From: Candidatus Omnitrophota bacterium
GTDB taxonomy: Bacteria > Omnitrophota > Gorgyraeia > Gygaellales > Profunditerraquicolaceae
DNA: 33,305 nucleotides
NCBI GenBank assembly: GCA_903852325.1
Contig: CAINQO010000082.1
Span: 1 to 33,305, forward strand
Direction of reading: 5' to 3'
Part shown: positions 32,899-33,119 of the stretch, piece by piece
How the letters are laid out: each line of letters starts with the position of its first letter
Position numbering within the stretch: position 1 is the first letter of the stretch
Notes under the pieces: generated by a model
What the model was told of the DNA's origin: nothing
Databases searched by the model: none
What the model saw: the letters and a program-made list of their open reading frames with translations, nothing else
Program-made: the position numbers and the translations under genes

Positions 32899-32967
32899 CT
32901 TGTTTCTCCTTTTTTTAATTGCGCCCCGTAAAAGCACGGAGCTTTACTTATCTATTAAAAATCCCTT

Positions 32968-33049
32968 GCAGCCGAAAGGCTTGGGCAAAAAAATACCGCA
33001 AAGCATGGTTATTTTCTGTTACTGCTTTGCGGTTTATACATGTTGCTAC
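32968..33049 (-). promoter_or_regulatory. Leader of second csp gene with embedded terminator-like hairpin
   Basis: On - strand: ACCGCAAAGCA (33033-33023) / TGCTTTGCGGT (33005-32995), A, then T7; GTAGC (33049-33045) may pair with GCTGC (32972-32968). Confidence 0.65.
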
Positions 33050-33091
33050 TCAATTTCTTTGTTTCTCCTCTAATCTAAGCTTGACAAAATA

Positions 33092-33119
33092 AATATAGCA
33101 TTAATTGAGGATTTGTCAA
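33092..33119 (-). promoter_or_regulatory. Promoter of second csp gene
   Basis: - strand TTGACA (33119-33114), 16 nt, TATATT (33097-33092). Confidence 0.7.

Follow-up and report, generated by a model that had tools for sequence, protein, structure and literature searches.

The csp genes of Candidatus Omnitrophota are preceded by leaders that, judged by sequence comparison, form a real, conserved and csp-specific class, and one of them, leader 2 of the window analysed here, is probably a ribosome-coupled transcription attenuator of csp (we put the probability at about 0.6). The window is a stretch of 33,305 nt from Candidatus Omnitrophota contig CAINQO010000082.1 (assembly GCA_903852325.1). Because a small ORF, opened by a weak start codon, extends into a terminator-like hairpin, a translating ribosome probably decides whether csp is transcribed. 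Omnitrophota are an uncultivated phylum. The nearest relatives of the window's genome are other Candidatus Omnitrophota genomes, and four csp-like genes were identified in it. The csp upstream regions compared were collected from 58 related genomes and a scan of GTDB, giving 181 distinct regions. Leader 2 belongs to the subtype that we call type A, and its csp gene starts at 32898 on the minus strand. Its features are as follows.

33092..33119, minus strand: promoter TTGACA-16-TATATT with an extended -10 TG (11/12 consensus matches)
33119-33114, minus strand: -35 box TTGACA (from sequence)
33097-33092, minus strand: -10 box TATATT, preceded by TG and a 16-nt spacer (from sequence)
33065..33069, minus strand: Shine-Dalgarno (SD) AGGAG of the leader ORF (from sequence)
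33009..33053, minus strand: leader ORF (uORF) of 14 codons, with its stop codon in the hairpin loop (from sequence and comparison)
32995..33033, minus strand: terminator-like hairpin, 11-bp stem ACCGCAAAGCA/TGCTTTGCGGT and 17-nt loop (from folding and covariation); arms at 33033-33023 and 33005-32995 (from sequence)
32987..32993, minus strand: U7 tract, with one A (32994) between stem and tract (from sequence)
32912..32986, minus strand: lineage-specific insertion with two more short hairpins (from folding and comparison)
32906..32911, minus strand: SD AAGGAG of csp (from sequence)
32698..32898, minus strand: csp coding sequence, 66 aa, ATG at 32898 (from sequence)

The promoter lies where a first-pass annotation of this DNA had placed it, and the hairpin, its 17-nt loop, the single A and the U7 tract are exactly as described there. 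The hairpin is predicted to have a folding energy of about -16.4 kcal/mol at 37 C, and the z-score for folding of the whole leader is -2.2. An 11-bp, G+C-rich stem of this predicted stability followed by U7 has the form of an intrinsic terminator, interrupted by one A, and its location on the same strand between promoter and csp is that of an attenuator. The uORF had been overlooked. Its codons in the window are TTG AGT AGC AAC ATG TAT AAA CCG CAA AGC AGT AAC AGA AAA TAA. A proposed pairing of GTAGC (33049-33045) with a later GCTGC (32972-32968) is not conserved, as GTAGC is present in only 1 of 26 leaders of the genus, that of the window; the motif falls in codons 2-3 of the uORF.

Close to the contig end, the plus strand carries an apparent 5' half of a tRNA (33266-33305; anticodon loop TTCGTAA, possibly tRNA-Thr CGU) that is cut by the end of the contig, with a promoter-like TTGACT-16-TATAAT ahead of it (33173-33200). 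GC-rich hairpins with T-tracts also occur close behind both csp genes of the window (32644-32675, minus strand; 15604-15630, plus strand) and appear to be ordinary 3' terminators.

U-tailed hairpins are present no more than 150 nt upstream of 137 of 178 csp genes (77%), versus 19 of 158 other genes from the same genomes and contigs (12%). The first-pass annotation had suggested a class of csp-leader RNAs selected for structure, against which the lack of such hairpins in leaders of orthologous csp genes was to count; that outcome did not arise, and covariation of the hairpin, its recurrence across the phylum and csp-specific covariance-model matches all support the suggestion. Nearly all of the stems in the 181 upstream regions are variants of CCG(C/T)(A/G)A(A/G)G...C(T)TTGCGG. 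Thus, the stems of the two leaders in the window, which had been thought unrelated, are related members of one conserved family (CCG(C/T)(A/G)A.G…GCGG).

For type A, 98.1% of the cells in the stem alignment are paired and 9 cells have changed on both sides. Pairing and covariation scores as high were reached in 0 of 500 shuffles, and pairing drops to 26-56% when the structure is slid along the alignment. The arms of a given leader pair better with each other than with arms exchanged between lineages (36 lineages, p<1e-4). A type A covariance model, built from the leader alone with the csp coding sequence excluded, was run on 285 Omnitrophota genomes; 29 of its best 30 loci, some from training genomes and many from outside them, are upstream of csp, and the remaining one is at a contig end. 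The type A signal is strong only in the family of the host, and thus marks a family-restricted subtype.

The U-tract begins directly after the stem or one base on in nearly all leaders, often with a single A or C between the two. This is the spacing of an intrinsic terminator, and it argues against a structural or processing role for the hairpin (an RNase site or a 5' stabiliser) with a U-tract that mainly pairs the csp ribosome binding site (RBS). The csp SD of the window, which is mostly open in predicted folds (0.67-0.75 unpaired), points the same way. Consistent with a processing element are the cleavage of the S. aureus cspA 5'UTR by RNase III (PMC3386247) and one short type A leader, L014, in which the U-tract is predicted to pair the csp SD (0.13-0.14 unpaired), yet we consider this role highly improbable. 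The terminator U-tract may pair with the csp SD region in the read-through RNA of three short type A leaders (L014, L016 and L035), of which L014 was folded.

The insertion found at 32912-32986 of the window is missing from 28 of 38 type A leaders, and there the hairpin ends no more than 45 nt before the csp ATG. Another promoter has no space there, so transcription of csp must pass through the hairpin. The same short distance bears on the idea that promoter, ORF and hairpin make up a separate transcript for a small RNA or small peptide, with csp transcribed from elsewhere or by unregulated, leaky read-through. What lies from the promoter to the U-tract does form a self-contained unit, but it is linked to csp throughout the best covariance-model matches, the encoded peptide is poorly conserved outside the genus, and a second promoter would not fit in most of the leaders. 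We therefore regard a separate transcript as improbable.

Type A leaders contain an SD and an ORF of 6-24 codons with a non-AUG start that nearly always stops inside the hairpin. An SD was identified at the uORF position in 50 of 54 type A leaders examined (four are without a clear SD), and promoter-like sequence was identified upstream of it in 41 of 44. We counted a uORF where ATG, GTG, TTG or ATT occurs 12-17 nt from the SD, in the frame of the CCG of the stem, and the frame stays open to the hairpin. This is the case in 17 of 27 lineages, 12 of them outside the genus, versus 6 lineages in each of the remaining frames and a mean of 2.4 (maximum 7) in 500 sets of shuffled spacers. The distance from start codon to stem arm often changes by multiples of three. 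Among 21 unique sequences from the genus, codons 2-7 are free of stops, whereas frame +2 has stops in 18, and the amino-acid similarity of these codons exceeds that of column permutations (p=0.028). Beyond the genus, peptide sequence is poorly conserved. These leaders thus have the short, SD-led ORF overlapping the hairpin in a conserved reading frame that is expected of an attenuator.

The start codons of the 40 listed type A leaders are TTG (27), ATT (9) and GTG (4), with no ATG; an ATG start is possible in two leaders outside this list (L029 and L049). In 19 of the 40, the uORF ends in Pro before UAA, and the UAA is part of the stem arm (CCG-UAA-AGC). There are departures from this scheme: the uORF frame differs from the CCG frame in several lineages, and the ORF of L020 reads through the hairpin with no stop in the loop. 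L012 and L018, which belong to tandem csp copies (genomes G011 and G017), have had the terminator swapped for an unrelated stem (GTCGAATCT/AGATTCGAC and GTCGGGTCT/AGACCCGAC); the uORF is retained and lengthened, and therefore stops again within the new loop. The idea that the uORF initiation region of type A leaders acts as a decoy by copying the csp RBS was considered and is unsupported (p=0.22).

We infer termination, translation, the direction of control and the signal from these patterns. Polymerase would start about 8 nt past the -10 box and transcribe the SD, the 14-codon ORF with its UUG start and then the terminator-like hairpin with U7. When the hairpin emerges with the ORF free of ribosomes, it would fold, and transcription would stop short of csp. 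A ribosome that has already initiated would instead sit over the 5' arm and the loop (as read from the geometry), blocking the hairpin and letting polymerase read through. The stop codon, which lies in the loop in the window, is in the arm itself in many relatives, as Pro-stop CCG-UAA. Output of csp would then report the ease of initiation at a weak start codon, or the slowness with which the ORF is cleared. The likeliest signal may be that cold slows clearance or alters initiation, a suggestion that we make with considerable reserve.

The hairpin could also be an attenuator whose sensor is not the ribosome, with temperature or Csp, an RNA chaperone, melting or blocking it and the ORF being incidental. 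According to PMC8307031, Csp proteins are antiterminators in E. coli, and CspB and CspD of B. subtilis alter read-through at terminators. Moreover, the sister leaders of types B-D share the stem without a conserved ORF (6 of 50) and use RNA-RNA pairing. Against this stand the reading frame, SD spacing and stop within the hairpin of type A, which are conserved well above chance, and the lack of a conserved alternative pairing partner for the type A stem; no such partner and no alternative antiterminator helix was seen in a non-exhaustive look. We think a sensor other than the ribosome unlikely, and retain ribosome-coupled attenuation as the reading of type A.

Leader 1 of the window represents the companion types, and the first-pass annotation had given both leaders one layout. 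Instead, the uORF of leader 2 runs into the hairpin, whereas leader 1 relies on long-range RNA pairing.

15223..15250, plus strand: leader 1 promoter TTGACA-16-TATAAT (from sequence)
15258..15349, plus strand: leader 1 (type B), hairpin AACCGTAAGG/CCTTACGGTT with U8 and no uORF (from sequence, comparison and folding)

In leader 1, a helix between GTAGC...GGGAG and CTCCC...GCTAC spans the hairpin, and relatives preserve it by two-sided changes (TATAGCAG/CTGCTATA and ATAGCAAC/GTTGTTAT). Types B-D occur phylum-wide: model R1, built from type C, matches 150 of 285 genomes, and its best 30 loci all precede csp, the coding sequence of which is outside the model; here, too, the top matches include training genomes, but many come from other genomes. 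Helices of types B-D were tested by partner exchange among 50 representatives, with type D leaders pooled with B and C (as in the ORF test). The terminator helix is supported (p<2e-4). Strand B, which follows the terminator, has supported pairings with region A' at the csp start (p<2e-4), with A1 at the 5' end (p=0.0026) and with A2 (p=0.011); none of three control pairs is significant in the same test. An antiterminator helix between A2 and the 3' arm of the terminator (A2:T3) is suggestive only (p=0.056), and single cases look good (L208, AGGCGAGT/ACTCGCCT; L205, AGGTGAGT/ATTCACCT). A conserved uORF was rejected for these types, with 6 of 50 leaders having one and the frame in the type B leader of the window shifted.

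The B:A' helix can reach 12-15 bp and include the AUG (e.g., CCATTATTTACTATC/GGTAGTAAGTAATGG). Since strand B also pairs with the 5' end in many type B-D leaders, and the same strand is used, the B:A' and A1:B helices are mutually exclusive. In part of the B-D set, one of the flanking strands that pair across the hairpin is alternatively able to close off the csp start codon. In type C leaders (e.g., L133, L051, L033 and G000:C100 1032-1150, minus strand), the strand after the terminator has 12-15 nt complementary to the csp start region and to the leader 5' end, a possible three-strand switch. The type C AUG is sealed at predicted equilibrium from 5 to 37 C. Predicted start-codon accessibility is nearly constant over this range, which argues against a simple thermodynamic thermometer; any temperature response would therefore be kinetic or factor-dependent.

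A divergent csp-like gene, apparently without a hairpin leader of its own, lies just downstream of a type C csp (G000:C100 545-733, minus strand). Some Gemmatimonadota csp leaders (L105, L106, L108, L110, L075, L274-L277 and L288) have a hairpin CCGCGAGG...CTCGCGG followed by a T-tract, with flanks GGTTCAAGCA / TTTGAGCC and an RBS-proximal GGTTTGAAC. Their layout is that of types B-D with other flanking sequence, and not every csp of those genomes has such a leader.

Control of csp is known mainly from E. coli and B. subtilis. The cspA thermoregulator RF01766, found in the cspA 5'UTR of E. coli and Agrobacterium (PMC3738593), is likewise a long structured csp 5'UTR, but it is described as acting on translation, unlike what we propose for type A. 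Leader 2 is not assigned to this family: with coding region it scores 54.7 bits, below the gathering threshold of 78 bits, and three leaders of the window's genome score 47-55 bits with coding region. The leader alone gives no match to RF01766 at E<=10, and no family in Rfam matches the csp leader. In E. coli, transcription of cspB and cspG likewise terminates prematurely, before the gene or in its first part (PMC7815308), although that termination is Rho-dependent and the Omnitrophota hairpin is of the intrinsic type. The accessible part of PMC8307031 places control of B. subtilis cspB and cspC likewise in the 5'UTR, through cold-shock boxes, and reports no leader terminator or uORF for them; B. 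subtilis Csp proteins alter read-through at terminators, according to the same source. Searches of the open-access literature on csp leaders turned up no uORF attenuator of csp.

A csp leader class that spans the phylum, has covariation support and includes its own terminator would reveal a second main way of controlling csp, one acting on transcription and not on translation alone. Rfam would gain an RNA family that it lacks, from a phylum with almost no laboratory models, and the conserved non-AUG starts offer a direct handle on possible sensing of cold-induced change in translation initiation.

Close parallels to type A are the ribosome-mediated attenuators (the trp, his and thr leaders and tnaC), which likewise have a short SD-led ORF before a U-tailed hairpin and in which the position of the ribosome likewise decides termination, as it would here. 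The Pro-stop endings of many type A relatives recall TnaC. Unlike these systems, type A has no regulatory codon run, no family-wide conserved peptide and no alternative antiterminator helix that we could see, and it combines non-AUG starts with a cold-shock target. Within the phylum, types B-D share the promoter layout, the terminator stem family and the csp target; they differ from type A in the lack of a conserved uORF and in a long-range helix across the hairpin and, in some of these leaders, a strand that can seal the csp start codon instead. We tentatively propose, at somewhat less than even odds, that type A represents a new class of attenuator in which a non-AUG uORF (UUG, AUU or GUG) overlaps an intrinsic terminator and csp reads the state of translation initiation (e.g., the level of IF3 or ribosome availability), and that these genomes also carry a sister class which retains the stem but would rely on a switch of three RNA strands at the csp start codon instead of on a ribosome.
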